From positions 1-23,289 of the IMG/VR virus record IMGVR_UViG_3300046170_000189: DNA of 23,289 bases, one strand, 5' to 3'. Position numbers and translations under genes: made by a program. This document shows, piece by piece, positions 308 through 15,414 of the stretch (positions within the stretch are counted from its first letter, which is position 1; each line of letters begins with the position of its first letter). The notes below the pieces were generated by a model, which saw only the letters and a list, made by a program, of their open reading frames with translations, did no database searches and was not told the DNA's origin. This DNA is from a virus.

Positions 308-385
308 GCAAGGGGGTATTTGCAAAAAAAGTTAAGTATAACTAAGGTCGCAAAATATAGAGGTTACTATTTTGACAGGCACAAG

Positions 386-823
386 ATGTACGAAATTGAG
401 TTGGAAGTATCAGGGCAACCGATTGGCAAGGGCAGGCCACGGTTTACCAAAGTAGGCCACACTTACACTCCACAGAAGACCAAAGAGTATGAGCGGCGTA
501 TTCATGCGGCTGCATGGGCAGAGATGGCAAAGCACAACATTGACCAGACACTGAGGCCAGTGGCGGTTGAAATCATTGCGTTTATGGACATCCCGCAATC
601 ATGGTCTAAGAAAAAGCGATTAGAGGCAGAGTATGGTGCGATAAGCCCTATGACTAAGCCAGACGTAGACAACATTGCTAAGATCGCTCTGGATGGCCTC
701 TCAGGCACTATCTTTGCTGATGACAAGCAGGTTACTAGCATGAAGGTCAAAAAGACGTACTGTCATCCTGACCGTGGGCCAGTGCTTTACATATCAGTGT
801 CTTGGACTGATGAGGGCGCATAG
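386..823 (+). CDS. rusA: RusA-family Holliday junction resolvase
   Basis: Homodimeric RusA-type endonucleases cut Holliday junctions symmetrically during phage recombination and DNA packaging. The sequence shows the N-terminal strand with GQPIGKGRPRF (residues 10-20) and the acidic core KPDVDNIAK (91-99; D93 and D95), followed by D103 and D112/D113, matching the family's catalytic aspartates and lysine. At 145 residues the length is normal. The ATG at 386 fits the family start. A TTG at 320 with AGGGGG just upstream would add 22 residues and cannot be excluded. The gene is rightward while the other recombination genes run leftward, and its last 37 bases overlap the end of the convergent nuclease gene at 787-1134. 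Confidence 0.9.
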   Translation: MYEIELEVSGQPIGKGRPRFTKVGHTYTPQKTKEYERRIHAAAWAEMAKHNIDQTLRPVAVEIIAFMDIPQSWSKKKRLEAEYGAISPMTKPDVDNIAKIALDGLSGTIFADDKQVTSMKVKKTYCHPDRGPVLYISVSWTDEGA

Positions 824-1428: not shown

Positions 1429-1941
1429 TTAAAACCTCATTTCTTGATAAACTCTCCATAGGCTTTCTATTGGTTGCAGTCTTATTTGCTCCATTGTCAT
1501 GCAAGGGCCATGACCAAGGTCATCTTCTTTTGCTTCTATGTGGAATTGTTTTCTAGGTATGTATCCAACAAGAGACATGACATTATCTTTTTCAGTGGCT
1601 GTCACCAATATAGAGCAACTAGCTTTGAATGAGGCCAATGACTTAAATAACAATTTACCGTGTTCGTGAAATGTACTTTTAACATCTATACTTATATCCC
1701 CTAAAAACATATCGGCACCATCATCTACGCCCAATTGAAATACGTTGTAATTGCAGCTAAACACCTTTGCTACCGCAAGCTCTGCCTTGATGCCTAGGTA
1801 GTCAACATCACTGTCATTTCTTCCTTGGTCTTTCCTTTGATTTCCTACACCACTTGCTCTTGCTAATTGCCACCGCAGAGTAGATGCCTGCTTGCACTGC
1901 AACATTTCTTCTAAAGACAAACTAACTTTCAAGGGGGTCAT
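1429..1941 (-). CDS. putative PD-(D/E)XK nuclease-fold protein
   Basis: A 170-residue protein with the layout of a restriction-endonuclease-like core: E54 in the helix GIKAELAVAKVF, D77 in DDGADMF, then D86-V-K88 in ISIDVKST followed by a hydrophobic strand. D...D-x-K after an upstream Glu is the usual catalytic pattern of small phage PD-(D/E)XK proteins. AAGGA lies 7 bases before the ATG, and the first 20 bases overlap the end of the preceding gene. Context with SSB, an annealing protein and resolvases suggests DNA recombination or end processing. The family call rests on motif spacing alone. Confidence 0.5.
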   Translation of the reverse strand: MTPLKVSLSLEEMLQCKQASTLRWQLARASGVGNQRKDQGRNDSDVDYLGIKAELAVAKVFSCNYNVFQLGVDDGADMFLGDISIDVKSTFHEHGKLLFKSLASFKASCSILVTATEKDNVMSLVGYIPRKQFHIEAKEDDLGHGPCMTMEQIRLQPIESLWRVYQEMRF

Positions 1942-2314
1942 AACCTATTCCTTCTGCCAGCTTTGTCATTGCCAGTTCAAAGAACGTGTTAAACTCGCTT
2001 TGATCCATCTTATCAAAGCTGATGCTGTCAGGTATGTTTACCAGTTCACCGTTTAGCGCAGATAACTTGATGCGCACATACCCACACGCAATCTTTAGCT
2101 CATCGTGTAGGTGATGCTCTGTGGGCCATTTGGCTGTATCTCTAGCCACCCTGCGCAGCGTAGACCAATACAGGTTATGATGTGGGTTGGATCGCTTACC
2201 AGTGGGTGACAGATTAAATAATGCGCCTTGTGGGTAATCTTCCATCCGTTCTGCGTCATATTGAGAAACAGGCACTAAGCGCCCATTCCTCAGTTCCATT
2301 TGTAATTTTGTCAT
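1922..2314 (-). CDS. NinB/DUF1367-like recombination-associated protein
   Basis: A 130-residue protein with features I associate with phage NinB/Orf or DUF1367-type proteins: a strand-rich start (MTKLQMELRNGRLVPV), a KRSNPHHNLYWSTL segment resembling the usual 'RS-x-x-Q/H-N-x-x-W' signature, HLHDELK followed by a GYV strand, and a C-terminal DKMDQSEFNTFFELAM helix. NinB (Orf) of lambda helps load recombination proteins on SSB-coated DNA, which fits its place just downstream of SSB and the annealing protein. A GAGG site precedes the ATG at 2314. Assignment to one family rather than the other is uncertain. Confidence 0.55.
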   Translation of the reverse strand: MTKLQMELRNGRLVPVSQYDAERMEDYPQGALFNLSPTGKRSNPHHNLYWSTLRRVARDTAKWPTEHHLHDELKIACGYVRIKLSALNGELVNIPDSISFDKMDQSEFNTFFELAMTKLAEGIGYDPLES

Positions 2315-2408: not shown

Positions 2409-2786
2409 CTACCAAGGGATTTCATCATCCAACTTGTTTTCTGTGAACGTCTGACCCTCTGCTGCGCGTTGTGGTTCATGCTCAGTATGCATTACCTGCT
2501 GACGCTGTTGACCACCGATCAGCTTAACGTCATTAGCGCGAATACTTAGGTATGTTTTGCCGTTGTACTCACGGGTCTTTAGCTCACCTGATACGCCTAC
2601 TTGTTTGCCTTTCGTAACGTACTGGGCAATTCCTGTTCGGTTATAGTCAACGTCAAAGAAGATCGTGCCTTTATTTGCTCCATAGCCATCATCAACTGCG
2701 ACTGAAAACTTGAGAAATCCCCCTCTCTCGTTCTCTTGAATTTGACTGTCTTTGGTGACACGCCCGATAATAGTGCATACTTTCAT
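2409..2786 (-). CDS. ssb: single-stranded DNA-binding protein
   Basis: A 125-residue OB-fold SSB. It begins MKVCTIIGRVTKDSQI, has FLKFSVAVDDG, a GKQVGVSGELKTREYNGKTY core strand pair with the typical 'v-x-V-x-G-x-L' pattern, then a Gln/Glu-rich flexible linker and an acidic tail ending DDEIPW. This is a variant of the DDDIPF tip by which SSB recruits partner proteins. It would coat single strands during phage replication and recombination. The ATG overlaps the stop of the upstream annealing protein by four bases (ATGA), so the two are co-translated, a pairing known from many phage annealing systems. Confidence 0.93.
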   Translation of the reverse strand: MKVCTIIGRVTKDSQIQENERGGFLKFSVAVDDGYGANKGTIFFDVDYNRTGIAQYVTKGKQVGVSGELKTREYNGKTYLSIRANDVKLIGGQQRQQVMHTEHEPQRAAEGQTFTENKLDDEIPW

Positions 2787-3397
2787 ACCATTAGCTCCGT
2801 TTTACGTTTATCATGTGCTTCTACAAGCTGTTCATATTGTGGCTCTGACAGGTCAGGGCTGTTGATTAGTTTCTTATAGCGGTTCTCATTGTCAGCAAAC
2901 CGCTTTGCATCGCAGTTCTCATAGAACGTCAATGCAGCATCTATACGCGCTGCAAGATCAAGTTCCATTGATGGCTTGGGTGCAGCGTCAGATGCTTTGA
3001 TCGCCTGCTCTTTACGCTTTACACCTTCCATCTCGTTAGCAGATGCATACTGACCACCATGCATACCCATAGATGCAAGTGCGCGTCCGATGGCTGATGT
3101 CTCGCATACCTCTACAGCAGATGTCTTTGTAATGTGTGATGATCCACGGATTTCTTCTGCCAAGCCTGATCCGACAACAAAACCGTCTTTGTCTTTAACT
3201 GTGGCTTTAACCACTACTGTCTGACCGTCATTGTGGATGATGTCTGTATCAATCCCGTACTCACCGCCAAACACAGTGCGGAACGCTTCTACACGCTTTG
3301 CTACCTCTGTGTACTGCTTACCACCGCGCTGCATGACCCCATGTGACTTGTTGAGGTCTGCAACGAAATCCATTGCTGTTTGAAACTTATTGGGCAT
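2783..3397 (-). CDS. single-strand annealing protein, ERF/Rad52-like
   Basis: A 204-residue protein. The central region has YTEVAKRVEAFRTVFG, a strand-turn pair (VVVKATVKDKDGFVVGSG), a short AEE segment, and ETSAIGRALASMG, the signature of phage single-strand annealing proteins of the ERF/Sak/Rad52-like groups. The last 60 residues are charged and helical and probably contact SSB. The ATG at 3397 is preferred over one at 3448 because AAGGAAG lies about 7 bases upstream and the longer start would lie within the upstream gene. Direct four-base coupling to ssb supports a recombinase role. Which superfamily it belongs to needs a profile search. Confidence 0.75.
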   Translation of the reverse strand: MPNKFQTAMDFVADLNKSHGVMQRGGKQYTEVAKRVEAFRTVFGGEYGIDTDIIHNDGQTVVVKATVKDKDGFVVGSGLAEEIRGSSHITKTSAVEVCETSAIGRALASMGMHGGQYASANEMEGVKRKEQAIKASDAAPKPSMELDLAARIDAALTFYENCDAKRFADNENRYKKLINSPDLSEPQYEQLVEAHDKRKTELMV

Positions 3398-3563
3398 TGA
3401 TCGCTTCCTTCTTTTTGTCATGCGCAATGTTAGCTGCGCGGATACCATTATCTATTGCGTCATAGACTTTACTCATAGTTATGCTGTCAATCTTATCACC
3501 AGCCGCAATCAGTGCAGCTATAATGTGGTTCTTAATATCTGCGGGTACAGGATGTTTATACAT
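3387..3563 (-). CDS. hypothetical 58-residue protein, first gene of the leftward operon
   Basis: A short leftward frame reading MYKHPVPADIKNHIIAALI at its start and ending KKKEAINAQ. It has codon-like composition, a good ribosome binding site (GAGG 7 bases before the ATG at 3563), and its end overlaps the start of the annealing-protein gene by 11 bases. The middle (KIDSITMSKVYDAIDNGIRAAN) looks like a short helical bundle. It is the promoter-proximal gene of the early leftward unit. Function unknown; small proteins in this place are often regulators or host-takeover proteins, but nothing here shows that. Confidence 0.6.
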   Translation of the reverse strand: MYKHPVPADIKNHIIAALIAAGDKIDSITMSKVYDAIDNGIRAANIAHDKKKEAINAQ

Positions 3564-3621: not shown

Positions 3622-3648
3622 CCCCAAGAATGCAAAAAAGGAGAACGC

Positions 3649-3834
3649 ATGAATAGCAAGATGATGTATAACTTGGAGCATATCCAGCGGCTGATGAAGG
3701 ATCGTCAACCGTCTAAGGTATGTGAAGCAACAGGTTTATCGCGGCATACTTACTACCGTGTTCGGGATGGCGTGGGCAATGTCACCTACGATACGGTAAA
3801 AGTCTTGTCTGATTATTTTATGGATGTAGAATAG
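3649..3834 (+). CDS. Cro/XRE-like helix-turn-helix regulator
   Basis: A 61-residue protein, the size of a minimal Cro. Helix 1 is NLEHIQRLMKDR, and the helix-turn-helix is SKVCEATGLSRHTYYRVRDG (residues about 22-41), followed by a helix VTYDTVKVLSDYFM as in XRE-family repressors. AAGGAG 6 bases before the ATG at 3649 sets the start; upstream in-frame codons run through the promoter region. It is the first rightward gene, opposite the leftward operon and followed at once by a terminator. It probably binds the intervening 3564-3648 region and sets the direction of early transcription. No CI-like partner is visible. Confidence 0.8.
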   Translation: MNSKMMYNLEHIQRLMKDRQPSKVCEATGLSRHTYYRVRDGVGNVTYDTVKVLSDYFMDVE

Positions 3835-3836
3835 AA

Positions 3837-3870
3837 AAAGACCCGCGCCTAGCAGAAGCAACGGGTCTTT
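3837..3870. terminator. rho-independent terminator-like hairpin after the Cro-like gene
   Basis: AAAGACCCG (3837-3845) pairs perfectly with CGGGTCTTT (3862-3870), a 9-bp stem with a 16-base loop just after the stop codon at 3834. The TCTTT end provides a short U-tract rightward, and the A-run on the other side makes it usable leftward. It lies between the regulator and the replication gene, where an attenuator would limit replication-gene expression. Confidence 0.7.
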
Positions 3871-3900: not shown

Positions 3901-4491
3901 GTGTCCCACTATATGACAGCATTAGCAATGAAGCAACAGGGTTTGAAGCCTGCAACCAAAATTGTGTTGTATTGGCTTGCAGATCATCACAATGGAGAAA
4001 CAGGCGAATGTTTCCCAAGCATAAATCGTTTGGCAGATGTCTGTGAGATGTCGCGCCGTTCTGTTGAGAACCATTTAGAAACATTGGAAACATTGGGTCT
4101 AATACAGCGAGTGAACCAATTTCGTGACCGTGGGGGCAAAACGTCAAATCGGTACGTTTTAGACCTTGTAGGAACATCTGAGAACAATAGTTTGGCGGAC
4201 ACCGATACGCAAAATCTGCGCATGGTATGCGAAAAATCTGCGCATGGGGATACGCAAAATCTGCGCATGAATAACCTTGTAATAAATAACCTTGGAAAAG
4301 AAACCAATAATACATCATCAAAAGATGATGAGGTGAATTATTACTTTGATCAATTATGGGAAATGTACCCCCGCAAGATAGGGAAAGGGCAGGCGAGAAA
4401 AGCATATGTATCAGCTTCTAAGAAGATAGACTTCTTTGATCTATTGCCTAAACTGGAAGCATACGTTTCAACACTAGATGGTAAAGACTAA
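3901..4491 (+). CDS. phage replication initiator, O-like, C-terminus out of frame
   Basis: A 196-residue reading frame starting at GTG 3901, with AAGGAG 9 bases upstream. Residues about 15-90 form a winged helix-turn-helix of the phage replication initiator type (LKPATKIVLYWLADHHN, then FPSINRLADVCEMSRRSVENH and LIQRVNQF). The middle is low-complexity and overlaps the iterons at 4205-4268. The C-terminal part has FDQLWEMYPRKIGKGQARKAY, found near the end of lambda-O-like and DnaA-loader-like phage proteins. The family's closing motif (PH-x-ATWLN-x-x-RW) is present, but one frame over after the stop, so the gene is frameshifted at about 4483-4486. It probably binds the origin and recruits host helicase. 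Confidence 0.8.
   Translation: MSHYMTALAMKQQGLKPATKIVLYWLADHHNGETGECFPSINRLADVCEMSRRSVENHLETLETLGLIQRVNQFRDRGGKTSNRYVLDLVGTSENNSLADTDTQNLRMVCEKSAHGDTQNLRMNNLVINNLGKETNNTSSKDDEVNYYFDQLWEMYPRKIGKGQARKAYVSASKKIDFFDLLPKLEAYVSTLDGKD
4205..4268. repeat. three 19-bp iterons inside the replication gene (candidate origin)
   Basis: ATACGCAAAATCTGCGCAT occurs exactly at 4205-4223 and 4250-4268. Between them, ATGCGAAAAATCTGCGCAT (4227-4245) differs at two positions. The starts are 22 and 23 bp apart, about two helical turns. Each unit is itself a dyad (ATRCGCA, 5-base spacer, TGCGCAT). The repeats encode low-complexity protein in two different frames, so conservation is at DNA level. Repeats of this kind inside the initiator gene are how the lambda origin is built. 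Confidence 0.75.
4271..4330. other. AT-rich segment with direct repeat and hairpin next to iterons
   Basis: Directly after the third iteron the DNA becomes strongly AT-rich. It has a direct repeat ATAACCTTG (4271-4279 and 4286-4294) and a perfect hairpin CATCATC-AAAA-GATGATG (4313-4330). An easily melted segment beside iterons is what an origin unwinding element looks like. Its use as such is inferred. Confidence 0.5.
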
Positions 4492-4552
4492 ACAATACAT
4501 GCCTCACCTAGCTACTTGGCTAAACGGTGAGCGCTGGGCAGATGAGGTATAA
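4484..4552 (+). pseudogene. displaced C-terminus of the replication protein
   Basis: In the +1 frame relative to the replication gene, the DNA reads KTKQYMPHLATWLNGERW and then ADEV before a TAA at 4550-4552. This closely follows the C-terminal signature of O-like phage replication proteins. It has no start codon or ribosome binding site of its own. Removing one A of the AAA at 4483-4485 joins it to the preceding frame. The next gene's ribosome binding site lies at its end, so the undamaged gene would run 3901-4552. Confidence 0.75.
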
Positions 4553-6940: not shown

Positions 6941-7102
6941 ATGCCCAAAAAAGGTTTGTATGCGAATGTTCACGCAAAACGTAAGCGGATAGCTGCGGGT
7001 TCTGGTGAGAAGATGCGCAAGGCTGGCTCTAAAGGTGCGCCTAAAGCATCAGCATGGAAAGCAGCCGCAAAAACAGCCAAGAAAAAGAAAGCGAAAAAGT
7101 AA
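6941..7102 (+). CDS. conserved basic 53-residue phage protein
   Basis: MPKKGLYANVHAKRKRIAAG followed by a Lys/Ala-rich tail ending KKKKAKK. This belongs to a small protein family I recall from many marine phages, with the signature 'GLYANIHAKRKRI-x-x-GSGE-x-M'; function unassigned. The composition suggests nucleic-acid binding, either in the virion or in DNA condensation. The ATG at 6941 has AGGAG 7 bases upstream; a GTG at 6917 is less likely. Its stop shares bases with the next start (TAATG). Confidence 0.8.
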   Translation: MPKKGLYANVHAKRKRIAAGSGEKMRKAGSKGAPKASAWKAAAKTAKKKKAKK

Positions 7103-7380
7103 TGCCACCCAATGAGGATAAGAAGAAAAAAGGCGGGTTGCTGAATGATTTGGCAATGGGCCTCGGCCTGAAAGATCGGGATGCCAGTTACTACAACCGC
7201 ACAGCAAAGACGATAGGCAGAACGCAGGGTGCAGATGCGCAGCAGCGTTACATGCGATCCAGTGGTTACGGCAGGCCACAAGCTGGTCTTTTCTCATTTC
7301 TAAGCGGCGGCAACAGTCAAGGTAGCAACGCAGTAGCGGTGCGGCAACAACATTATACCGCGCATGTTTGGATACCGTGA
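7102..7380 (+). CDS. hypothetical 92-residue protein
   Basis: Starts MPPNEDKKKKGGLLNDLAMG at an ATG overlapping the previous stop (TAATG). It lacks a good Shine-Dalgarno of its own and so probably depends on reinitiation. The middle is Gln/Arg/Tyr-rich (TQGADAQQRYMRSSGYGRP) and the end Gly/Ser-rich. It looks flexible, like small virion accessory proteins. The last 17 bases overlap the next gene. Function not recognised. Confidence 0.6.
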   Translation: MPPNEDKKKKGGLLNDLAMGLGLKDRDASYYNRTAKTIGRTQGADAQQRYMRSSGYGRPQAGLFSFLSGGNSQGSNAVAVRQQHYTAHVWIP

Positions 7381-7624
7381 CACTACCGATATGTTTGACC
7401 GTGGCGGCAAGTATGCCTCTGGTGGCATGTATCAAGATGGTGGTGGATATAGCGTTTTAGCAAACATCGGGGCTGCACTTTCAGGTCAAGACATGGGTGA
7501 ACGTCAGCTTTATGTAGATCAGTACATTGATCAACAAAAAGGCGCTGGGTTTGCAGAGCAAATGAAGACTGCTTATCCAGAGTATTACCAGCAGCTAGTA
7601 GTCAATGCGATGAGAAATATGTAA
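7364..7624 (+). CDS. hypothetical 86-residue protein, Gly-rich N-terminus
   Basis: Begins MFGYRDTTDMFDRGGKYASG, with a Gly-rich turn region followed by helical segments (VLANIGAALSGQ, then VDQYIDQQKGAGFAEQMKTA). The start lies within the end of the preceding gene and the stop shares bases with the next (TAATG), so it is embedded in a coupled set after terL. Not recognised. Position suggests a small virion or head-assembly protein. Confidence 0.6.
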   Translation: MFGYRDTTDMFDRGGKYASGGMYQDGGGYSVLANIGAALSGQDMGERQLYVDQYIDQQKGAGFAEQMKTAYPEYYQQLVVNAMRNM

Positions 7625-12817: not shown

Positions 12818-14923
12818 ATGGGTAAGAAGCTAACTTCTGCGACTTTAAAAGCTACAGATGGGCCAGATAACGTCATTACTGGCGAACATGAGAAAACTAT
12901 CTATAATTCGTCCACATTAGGTGCAGCTTATGATAGTCGTTTTGGAGAGGCGGGGTATGGTAGGCAGTATGAAGTAAGTTCAAATTATATTGTTTACGGT
13001 CTGCCAAATGCCACCACTTCAAGAAGTGCGGAAGGACTGTCTATTGATGAAATTTCAGGTAAAGGTTGTGTCAAAATTTATAACGGGCGCAGTGGTAATA
13101 TAACTAATGCTAATCCCCCAGAGTTAATAACAACAATCTATCCACCAGAAAGCGCTGCCAATCCGTTTGATAATGGTAATTTTGGTTATGCAGTTGCTAT
13201 CAGCCCAGATCAAACAAAAATAGCTATTTCTGCTTATGTATATGATGATGCTCTGGGAAGTAATAGTGGGCGTGTATATTTGTATTCTACGGGGCCAAAC
13301 CCCGAAGATTGGCAATTGCTACACACTTATACAAACCCTAATTACTATAACACAGGAACGGATGATTATTTTGGCTTTTCGGTTGCTTTAACAGATACAC
13401 ATTTAGGCGTTGGTGCGACAGGCGAAGATACTCCTAGCTACACCATGGTCGGCGCAGTGTATGTTTTTCATACAACAAGTTCAAATCAATACGGGCTAAC
13501 TTTTCAAAAACAAAACGATGGCAACTTAGTAGAAAACAGTGACCGATTTGGTTATAGTATTGCGATGTATGGCGATCTGATCGGGGTGGGTGCGCCTTAT
13601 GAGGATATTTCATCAACAGTAGATGAATATGGTAGAGTATACATTTATAATCATGTGACGAATACACAAGTTTTAAACGCCCAACCTTATGCCGTTTATA
13701 ATAGTAGTTACCGTACTTATGCAGGGTTTAATGTTCGCGCAAACAGCAATTATTTTTATTTCAGTGCGCATTCTGATAACTACAACAATGGTCGGATTTA
13801 CTCTTATTATCATAATGGCAATAGTGCATTAACTATCAATGGTGTTGGTGGTAATTTCGGTTATAGTTTTGATGTTGATTATGATCATTTATTTGTCGGC
13901 TCTTATACCTATGATAGAGTGACTTGTTATGACGCAAGTTCAGGAGGCAATCAGGGTACTTTATATAATCCGAATGTGGATACTCAAAGTAGTAGCGATA
14001 ATTTTGGCACGATAGTAAGGTGCAATAATTCAAGTGGAAATTCATTTTGCACACAAGTGCATATCTCGGCACGATATGAAGATAGTAAGGACAGTGCTGG
14101 AGGACTAACGGGCTACAATTCAGGCACTATCTACATCTTTGATGACGGTAATGGATTTCCATCAAATATGACTAGAATGTATGATTGGCGCGCGCCCGCA
14201 GACGATTTGCATTTTAGCAGGCGTTATGATGAATATTTTGGTCAAGCAATGGCCACCAGTTCTACAAAGTTAGTCGTAGGTTCACCTTTAGAGGATTATA
14301 CTGGGACTACACGGTACGTAAACAGTGGTGGTGCATATGTTTACAGCATAGAAACAGGGAATTTGTTAGCTAGTTTAACGAACCCAAACATTTATGGCAC
14401 ACAAAGTTCAGATTATTTCGGAGCAGCGGTAGCAATTAGTGATGATTACATTGCCGTAAGTGCTCACCTAGAAGATGTTGGCGGTGTGACAAATAGTGGT
14501 GTCGTGTATGTTTACGATGCATCAACGTATCAATTACTCCATCAAATTTACAATCCAAATAATTATAACACGGGAGTTAGCGATTACTTTGGTGGGGCTG
14601 GCAGTTGGGATAATTCTAAAGATAGTATGGCAATATCAGGGGATTATTTAATCGTGGGTGCGCCTTATGAAGATAGTGCTAACAGCAGTACAGGCGCGGC
14701 CTATGTATTTAGTCTGCAAACGGGACAACTGATCAGATCACATACACATTCAACAAACGCAAACGCATATTTTGGTATTAGTGTTTGTGCAAATGACACA
14801 TATTATTATATCGCTTCAAAAAATGGCGACGAGTATTATTCTTCTAATTATGGTGGTGTGACTTGCTACGACTTAGCAACAGGAACAGAGCAGTGGGTAG
14901 CAGGCCAAAACCTCCGAAAGTAG
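12818..14923 (+). CDS. FG-GAP-like beta-propeller receptor-binding protein (first part)
   Basis: A 701-residue frame immediately after the fibre-stem gene (TAA-ATG adjacent). It is made of repeats of about 55-70 residues with a core such as YFG-x-x-VA-x-S-x-D-x-I-x-VGAP-x-ED followed by G-x-VYVY. These are FG-GAP-type blades, with acidic loops that could bind calcium. Eleven repeats lie in this frame and three more in the shifted continuation to 15414, about 14 in all, enough for two seven-bladed propellers. A surface adhesin or receptor-binding role is inferred from position between fibre stem and chaperone. The DNA is visibly more AT-rich and Tyr/Asn/Ser-rich than its neighbours, suggesting recent acquisition. 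The frame ends early through a shift near 14907. Confidence 0.75.
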   Translation: MGKKLTSATLKATDGPDNVITGEHEKTIYNSSTLGAAYDSRFGEAGYGRQYEVSSNYIVYGLPNATTSRSAEGLSIDEISGKGCVKIYNGRSGNITNANPPELITTIYPPESAANPFDNGNFGYAVAISPDQTKIAISAYVYDDALGSNSGRVYLYSTGPNPEDWQLLHTYTNPNYYNTGTDDYFGFSVALTDTHLGVGATGEDTPSYTMVGAVYVFHTTSSNQYGLTFQKQNDGNLVENSDRFGYSIAMYGDLIGVGAPYEDISSTVDEYGRVYIYNHVTNTQVLNAQPYAVYNSSYRTYAGFNVRANSNYFYFSAHSDNYNNGRIYSYYHNGNSALTINGVGGNFGYSFDVDYDHLFVGSYTYDRVTCYDASSGGNQGTLYNPNVDTQSSSDNFGTIVRCNNSSGNSFCTQVHISARYEDSKDSAGGLTGYNSGTIYIFDDGNGFPSNMTRMYDWRAPADDLHFSRRYDEYFGQAMATSSTKLVVGSPLEDYTGTTRYVNSGGAYVYSIETGNLLASLTNPNIYGTQSSDYFGAAVAISDDYIAVSAHLEDVGGVTNSGVVYVYDASTYQLLHQIYNPNNYNTGVSDYFGGAGSWDNSKDSMAISGDYLIVGAPYEDSANSSTGAAYVFSLQTGQLIRSHTHSTNANAYFGISVCANDTYYYIASKNGDEYYSSNYGGVTCYDLATGTEQWVAGQNLRK

Positions 14924-15414
14924 TGATGAGTTTGGTTTTAGTATTGCTTGCACTAATGAAAATTTAGTTGTGGGACATCGCTATTCGGATTTTGCAGGTA
15001 CCAACCAAGGTAAAATTTGGGTTTGGGACGCAGAAACGGGTGTTGCGAGGTTCAATCTAAATAATCCAGAGAATGTGGGATATTCTAGCAGTAGCGATTA
15101 CTTTGGGTGGGCTGTAGACGTAAGCGATCAACACATATTTGTCGGTGCGCCCTATACGGACGTTACATACTCCCATTGATGGATATACTTATAACAGAAG
15201 CGATGTAGGTGTAGTGTATCAATATGATTTGAACGGCACTCTAATCAGAACTTATGACTTGCGCAGTTATCCTTCAATTATTGGACACGCAGGTCAATCT
15301 GCACGTTTTGGTGCTTGCATTAGATCGTTTACGGGTGGGTTTTTCTGTTCTGCGCCGTATCGTGGGGTAAATTACAACAGCAGCGGTCAAGGCTTAGTAT
15401 TTAAGTTCACTTAG
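14904..15414 (+). pseudogene. C-terminal repeats of the beta-propeller protein, frameshifted
   Basis: Two displaced frames continue the propeller repeats. From about 14910 the +1 frame reads SSDEFGFSIACTNENLVVG and then SSSDYFGWAVDVSDQHIFVG, up to a stop at 15179. A second +1 shift around 15172-15174 (CCC) leads to RSDVGVVYQYDLNGTLIRTY and RFGACIRSF, ending with a TAG at 15412-15414 just before the chaperone gene. Neither piece has a proper start signal (a GTG at 14970 lies mid-repeat). Dropping one A at 14907-14910 and one C at 15172-15174 makes one continuous protein of about 864 residues. Confidence 0.75.

Follow-up and report, generated by a model that had tools for sequence, protein, structure and literature searches.

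Why does the replication initiator gene of a phage carry an array of DNA repeats followed by A+T-rich DNA within its coding sequence, and does replication start there? We addressed this question in an IMG/VR phage contig from a marine bacterial virus, analysed over its full length of 23,289 bases (hereafter the window). The record is classed as linear and is probably an incomplete genome; the contigs of its closest relatives, found by a viral contig search, reach about 36 kb as against 23,289 bases here. Because the contig is a fragment, a further origin could lie outside it.

The initiator gene and its iterons

The gene (3901–4491, plus strand), identified from the list of open reading frames and from Pfam and PHROG matches, begins with a GTG codon and has 196 codons as it stands. 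Pfam HTH_36 at residues 14–68 (57.5 bits) is the sole domain above the cut-off, and the protein matches phrog_270 (replication initiation protein, 8e-33) and phrog_391 (O-like, 2e-20). With its N-terminal HTH_36 winged helix and these PHROG matches, it belongs to the HTH_36 phage initiators (phrog_270/phrog_391). The two open reading frames 3′ of the gene matched no Pfam or PHROG family.

Comparison of the initiator sequence with solved structures gave no useful match. The structure was modelled with AlphaFold2 using 59 relatives, which resulted in a confident winged helix (residues 1–88), a disordered stretch (92–139) and a helical C-terminal domain (141–192). The winged helix-turn-helix domain proper spans residues 14–88 (3940–4164, plus strand) within a block of pLDDT 83–94 over residues 11–90. 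It includes the recognition helix, whose start and body fall at residues 51–64 (4051–4092, plus strand; helix 52–64 in the model), and a wing strand at residues 80–87. The linker of residues 92–139 (4174–4317, plus strand) has pLDDT below 50 at 92–101 and 107–139, and the C-terminal domain (4321–4476, plus strand) consists of predicted helices 141–155, 162–173 and 178–192. A fold search with the model returned weak, generic winged-helix matches that include MarR-type and other regulators, the DnaD N-terminal domain (E 0.002) and a Rep-DNA complex (E 0.016). The predicted disordered linker is the part of the protein encoded by the repeats described below, which explains how a DNA element fits inside a protein gene.

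A repeat search located three iterons on the plus strand of the linker-coding DNA. Iterons 1 (4205–4223) and 3 (4250–4268) share the sequence ATACGCAAAATCTGCGCAT, and iteron 2 (4227–4245) reads ATGCGAAAAATCTGCGCAT. The three copies, which the search delimited as 4204–4224, 4226–4246 and 4249–4269, are 86–100% identical in pairwise comparison and are spaced by 22 and 23 bp; no further copy occurs elsewhere in the 23,289-base record. Each copy forms a good, imperfect dyad, in which 7-nt arms with six of seven matches flank a 5-nt centre. This array is the best 19-mer triple of the contig at spacings of 19–40, with a minimum pairwise identity of 17/19, and it far exceeds chance, as the best triple in 60 second-order Markov sequences reached 12/19. 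The array of three 19-bp dyad iterons at 22–23-bp spacing inside the initiator reading frame, given in the preliminary description, is thus confirmed. So is its statement that the iterons are read in two protein frames, since the codon offset is 1 for iterons 1 and 3 and 2 for iteron 2.

Near its end (4484–4552) the initiator gene is frameshifted by a single-base difference. The conserved C-terminal tail KQYMPHLATWLNGERWADEV (4490–4552, plus strand), recognized by comparison with relatives, is out of frame in this record, whereas intact, in-frame copies exist among relatives; four of them (L014, L016, L018 and L074) read through it in one frame. The exact shifted sequence occurred in no other contig of the viral contig search. 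The read-through in relatives and the privacy of the shifted sequence make a private mutation or an assembly error more likely, and a programmed frameshift for the tail is disfavoured. We regard the frameshift as probably an assembly error. Other genes of the contig appear similarly broken, which makes an indel-prone assembly likely. A 701-amino-acid repeat protein, FG-GAP/beta-propeller-like by eye, lies at 12818–15414 and continues in two other frames (14970–15179 and 15139–15414); its apparent indels, together with the frameshift at 4489, suggest an error-prone assembly. Two adjoining reading frames in different frames at 7054–7624 may also represent a single gene interrupted by an indel. 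The origin DNA itself is unaffected by the initiator frameshift.

Upstream, the initiator gene is directly preceded by a small Cro/C1-type HTH gene (3649–3834; phrog_18104), possibly an early regulator, after which an inverted repeat AAAGACCCG/CGGGTCTTT occurs at 3837–3870. A recombination and repair block lies beside the candidate origin at 320–2314 and 2409–3563. It comprises RusA (320–823, plus strand), a NinB/Orf-like gene (1922–2314, minus strand), an SSB gene (2409–2786, minus strand) and a gene for a phrog_11717 protein of no assigned function (2783–3448, minus strand).

Covariation of iterons and recognition helix

Relatives were collected as 80 loci from the viral contig search, which was then widened by further searches, and from two Rhodobacterales genomes (Donghicola tyrosinivorans and a Rhodobacterales MAG). 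The occurrence of relatives in Rhodobacterales indicates that the hosts are probably roseobacters and their relatives. The comparison set consists of 71 genes dereplicated ungapped at 93%, a procedure that leaves some near-duplicates among the 71. In every one of these genes the triple-repeat score exceeded the maximum of the same search upstream in the same gene, and the array was found at the equivalent position, always in the linker-coding part; the exact 22/23 spacing is kept in 61 of the 71. The preliminary description had proposed a search for such repeats in related phage initiators, and they are indeed present throughout, in sequences specific to each type. It had also named homologous initiators that keep the protein and lose the repeats as evidence against an origin. 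We looked for this combination among the 71 relatives and did not find it; instead, a change of the repeats accompanies a change of the recognition helix.

Distinct helices go with distinct iterons. SRRSVE helices pair with TGCGCAAAATCTGCGCA iterons and SKRAVQ helices with ATGGCAGAATCTGCCAC iterons, and [DN][KR]ST[VI] helices mostly have TGTTGCAAAACGCAACA-like or CGTCGCAAAATGCGACC-like sites. Further pairings include SRQSIINN with TGTCAAAAATTTGGACA and GKTALVGH with TGTTCGGAATgCGgACA. Over the 71 genes, iteron similarity correlated with similarity of the recognition helix (r 0.645, a raw value that includes a contribution from the physical linkage of both) as against r 0.099 for the C-terminus. 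Given the remaining N-terminus and the C-terminus, the partial correlation between iterons and helix was 0.531, compared to a null maximum of 0.174 (0 of 2000 Mantel permutations, which correct only partly for shared ancestry). Where two genes agreed in the C-terminus (at least 80%) and differed in the helix, iteron similarity was 0.45 (n = 17), against a background of 0.46; where they shared the helix and differed in the C-terminus, it was 0.79 (n = 27).

As a control for linkage, partial correlations were calculated along the N-terminus. They were 0.10 for residues 62–74 and 0.16 for residues 75–88 versus 0.52 for residues 47–61, and no N-terminal segment other than the helix exceeded 0.17, not even those encoded closer to the array. 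The strongest single-residue associations with the iterons were found at residues 56 (0.57), 51 (0.54) and 53 (0.52), followed by 83, 54 and 80. These positions map to where the predicted recognition helix starts and to the wing, and we consider 51, 53 and 56 putative specificity residues. This pattern is what would be expected of a winged helix that reads the iterons. Palindromic repeats of a sequence particular to each type also occur in the linker-coding DNA of most of the distant relatives inspected, and we propose them as a feature of the family; a short Microbacterium protein of 88 amino acids has no such repeats.

Unstable DNA and a tandem AACC element

The A+T-rich DNA that had been noticed behind the iterons is confirmed, with 74% A+T over 4270–4345 versus 53% for the contig. 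Nearest-neighbour calculation of duplex stability placed the lowest of 23,209 windows of 80 bp at 4277–4356, at −1.130 kcal/mol per step compared to a mean of −1.380 (SD 0.077). We consider this stretch the predicted DNA unwinding element. The perfect 7-bp hairpin CATCATC-AAAA-GATGATG (4313–4330; arms 4313–4319 and 4324–4330) is present as described. As a general part of the origin it did not hold up: stems of at least 7 bp occur at the equivalent place in 11 of the 71 relatives, with about 2 expected from shuffled sequences, and we ruled the hairpin out as a core element. The cumulative GC skew, calculated over the contig only, has its minimum at 3625, near the candidate origin; this is weak evidence because gene direction changes there too.

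The preliminary description had also reported a 9-bp direct repeat in this region. Direct repetition is present, and three AACC units, starting at 4272, 4287 and 4301, describe it better. Repeat 1 TAACCTTGTAATAAA (4272–4286) and repeat 2 TAACCTTGGAAAAG (4287–4300), both on the plus strand, were defined by motif position and silent-site conservation. Repeat 3 AAACCAATAATA (4301–4312, plus strand), defined by motif position, is read in a frame different from that of repeats 1 and 2 and is degenerate in relatives. The AACC repeats overlap the predicted unwinding element.

Repeats 1 and 2 are kept in nearly all relatives, regardless of iteron type. At residues 127, 131 and 132, which are the Gly/Val, Leu and Gly codons of the AACC units, codon identity among relatives with the same amino acid was 0.97–1.00, versus 0.34–0.44 expected for the family. 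This silent-site identity of 97–100% indicates that the DNA of the AACC units is constrained beyond the peptide. The 60 nt that follow iteron 3 contain 2.37 copies of AACC in the window family, compared to 0.26 copies per 60 nt in other parts of these genes; this family alone was anchored on iteron 3, and the counts in two distant families used AACC-like anchors and are partly circular.

AACC units also stand behind other, different repeats. This is the case in the HTH_36 initiators of Rhodobacter and Labrenzia phages and prophages, in SfV-type, Vibrio, Psychrobacter, Stenotrophomonas and Serratia phages and in phage mEp044, and the cluster is weaker in Aeromonas phage AsXd-1. In Arthrobacter phage Galaxy (locus L089, 950–1744) they follow its own, different repeats at steps of 11, 11 and 13 nt. 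There GAACCGTCC recurs at 11-nt steps, which places the first three copies in three frames of one gene. The element thus spans phages of Alpha- and Gammaproteobacteria and one Arthrobacter phage, and across families its units are read in all three frames. At the corresponding place the initiators of Lactobacillus and Lactococcus phages and of lambda have no AACC cluster. Lactobacillus phage J-1 (L251) and Lactococcus phage PLgT-1 (L252) carry GGTATACCGAAAAAT-type repeats at the equivalent place, without AACC units, and share a repeat core despite their different hosts.

As the AACC units stay constant across iteron types, the element is independent of type and is probably used by something equally unchanging. 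We tentatively suggest, at somewhat less than even odds, that the origins of HTH_36 phages have in the tandem AACC a second recognition element, not named before and common to phages of Proteobacteria and Actinobacteria. It may be recognized, perhaps in single-stranded form, by a component that is constant across iteron types, such as the replicative helicase, its loader or whichever part of the initiator is conserved. A limited search of the open-access literature suggests that the element is undescribed; the matches listed there for AACC strings were all unrelated.

A candidate origin and its known counterparts

Our preferred answer is that positions 4205 to about 4356 very probably constitute the phage replication origin, a theta origin placed inside the gene of its own initiator and working by a mechanism like that of ori-lambda and pSK41. 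The preliminary description had likewise placed an origin in the initiator gene, putatively bound through the winged helix, and this proposal appears well supported by the iteron–helix covariation, the arrays in 71 of 71 relatives and the least stable 80 bp adjoining them. The anatomy, the covariation, the DNA-level constraint and the low computed duplex stability are consistent with the following course of events. Dimers formed by the winged-helix N-terminus would bind the three dyad iterons via the recognition helix, with residues 51, 53 and 56 reading the variable bases and wing residues 80 and 83 assisting. The resulting nucleoprotein complex would melt the unstable DNA just downstream, from the AACC repeats onward, and the helical C-terminal domain on its flexible linker could then recruit helicase, loader or primase. 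Within the protein it is the linker that can vary freely, and its coding DNA can therefore serve as origin. The DNA-binding domain and its cognate sites would move together as one exchangeable cassette.

Three other explanations of the repeats were weighed. The iterons could be an operator at which the protein represses or otherwise regulates its own gene or adjacent ones. Iteron-binding proteins often autoregulate, and MarR-type and other regulators are among the fold matches of the winged helix. An operator is nevertheless improbable for sites that begin some 300 bp into the gene, are always located in linker-coding DNA and are followed by AACC repeats and, in the window, by the least stable DNA, and in a gene whose matched PHROG families are replication initiators. 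Even less probable is that the array binds the initiator while replication starts elsewhere, so that it would act in copy control or tethering as a titration or incompatibility site. Plasmid iterons can act in copy control and the contig is incomplete, but the array is adjoined by unstable DNA and a conserved AACC tandem, and ori-lambda and the pSK41 origin sit at the equivalent place in their initiator genes. That the repeats serve the protein, as a repetitive peptide linker (QNLR / EKSAHG / NNLG) with its own function, is scarcely credible: the linker is always present and of nearly constant length, but it is predicted to be disordered, silent sites are conserved, and the use of two frames by the iterons of one gene and of three by the AACC units, across families and within one Arthrobacter phage gene, rules out a reading as peptide repeats.

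An origin within the initiator gene bears on how phage and plasmid initiators select their origins through DNA-binding specificity. The HTH_36 family offers a large natural experiment, with many pairs of winged helix and matched site adjoining in one gene while the remaining protein is nearly constant. Residues 51, 53 and 56 are singled out as a putative specificity code that is directly testable. If the AACC reading is true, the winged helix and iterons would form a swappable specificity cassette ahead of a fixed AACC element. The family also raises a new question, namely what recognizes the AACC units. Inspecting the linker-coding part of HTH_36 genes for repeats together with AACC units could also offer a simple way to find origins in uncultured phages.

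The preliminary description had called the origin lambda-like, which holds for its architecture and not for homology of the initiator. Gene O of lambda contains the origin, in which dyad iterons bind O dimers and about 40 bp of A+T-rich DNA then opens (PMC5043065, PMC7466680). In the lambda record the iterons are 18 bp long, 20–24 bp apart, read in three frames and have a central A run. In both systems the origin occupies the middle of the initiator gene. The iterons are imperfect palindromes that have a run of A at the centre (ATCCCTCAAAACGAGGGA), are read in several frames and lie about two helical turns apart, and easily melted A+T-rich DNA comes directly after them, here the least stable 80 bp from 4277. 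They differ in that lambda has four iterons as against three here, of different sequence and without an adjoining AACC tandem. O carries Phage_rep_O (PF04492), whereas the window protein carries HTH_36 (PF13730), and profile comparison of lambda O with the window family by hhalign gave a probability of 3.4%, i.e. no detectable similarity. Homology to lambda O is thereby ruled out, and the window protein stands outside that family though alike in its proposed working. No homologue of lambda P was identified by Pfam and PHROG in the flanking genes scanned.

Judging from the model, the staphylococcal plasmid pSK41 is a closer structural parallel than lambda. Its initiator has an N-terminal winged helix, a central linker encoded by the origin and a separate C-terminus (PMC5703833), the same layout as predicted for the window protein. 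In pPR9 a phage-like pfam13730 (HTH_36) module stands in place of the N-terminus and origin, which were exchanged together, and the replicon is compatible with pSK41 (PMC5703833), which provides a precedent for the cassette exchange proposed here. The pSK41 N-terminus is RepA_N as opposed to HTH_36, and RepA_N (PF06970) is absent among the Pfam matches of the window protein up to E 0.1. A staphylococcal plasmid is also compared with an alphaproteobacterial phage. The pSK41 C-terminus is DnaD-like, and the C-termini are compared here by layout. In repABC plasmids, oriV lies inside repC and requires an A+T-rich region (PMC3155836); they share with the window an origin within the initiator coding sequence and alphaproteobacterial hosts, and differ in initiator family.

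Further counterparts are the phrog_270/phrog_391 proteins, for example those of SfV, Vibrio phage D72, Escherichia phage mEp044 and Rhodobacter phage RcMamaDuck. They share the domain, the gene layout and type-specific palindromic repeats after the winged helix, followed by AACC units. They differ in iteron sequence and in AACC steps, which are 11–14 bp compared to 14–15 here, with 17 bp before the second AACC copy in gammaproteobacterial phages. A survey of Stx phages noted HTH_36 replication types and did not mention iterons. The type of origin is thus known, and the novelty lies in this family with its helix–iteron pairs and, to judge from the limited literature search, in the AACC element.
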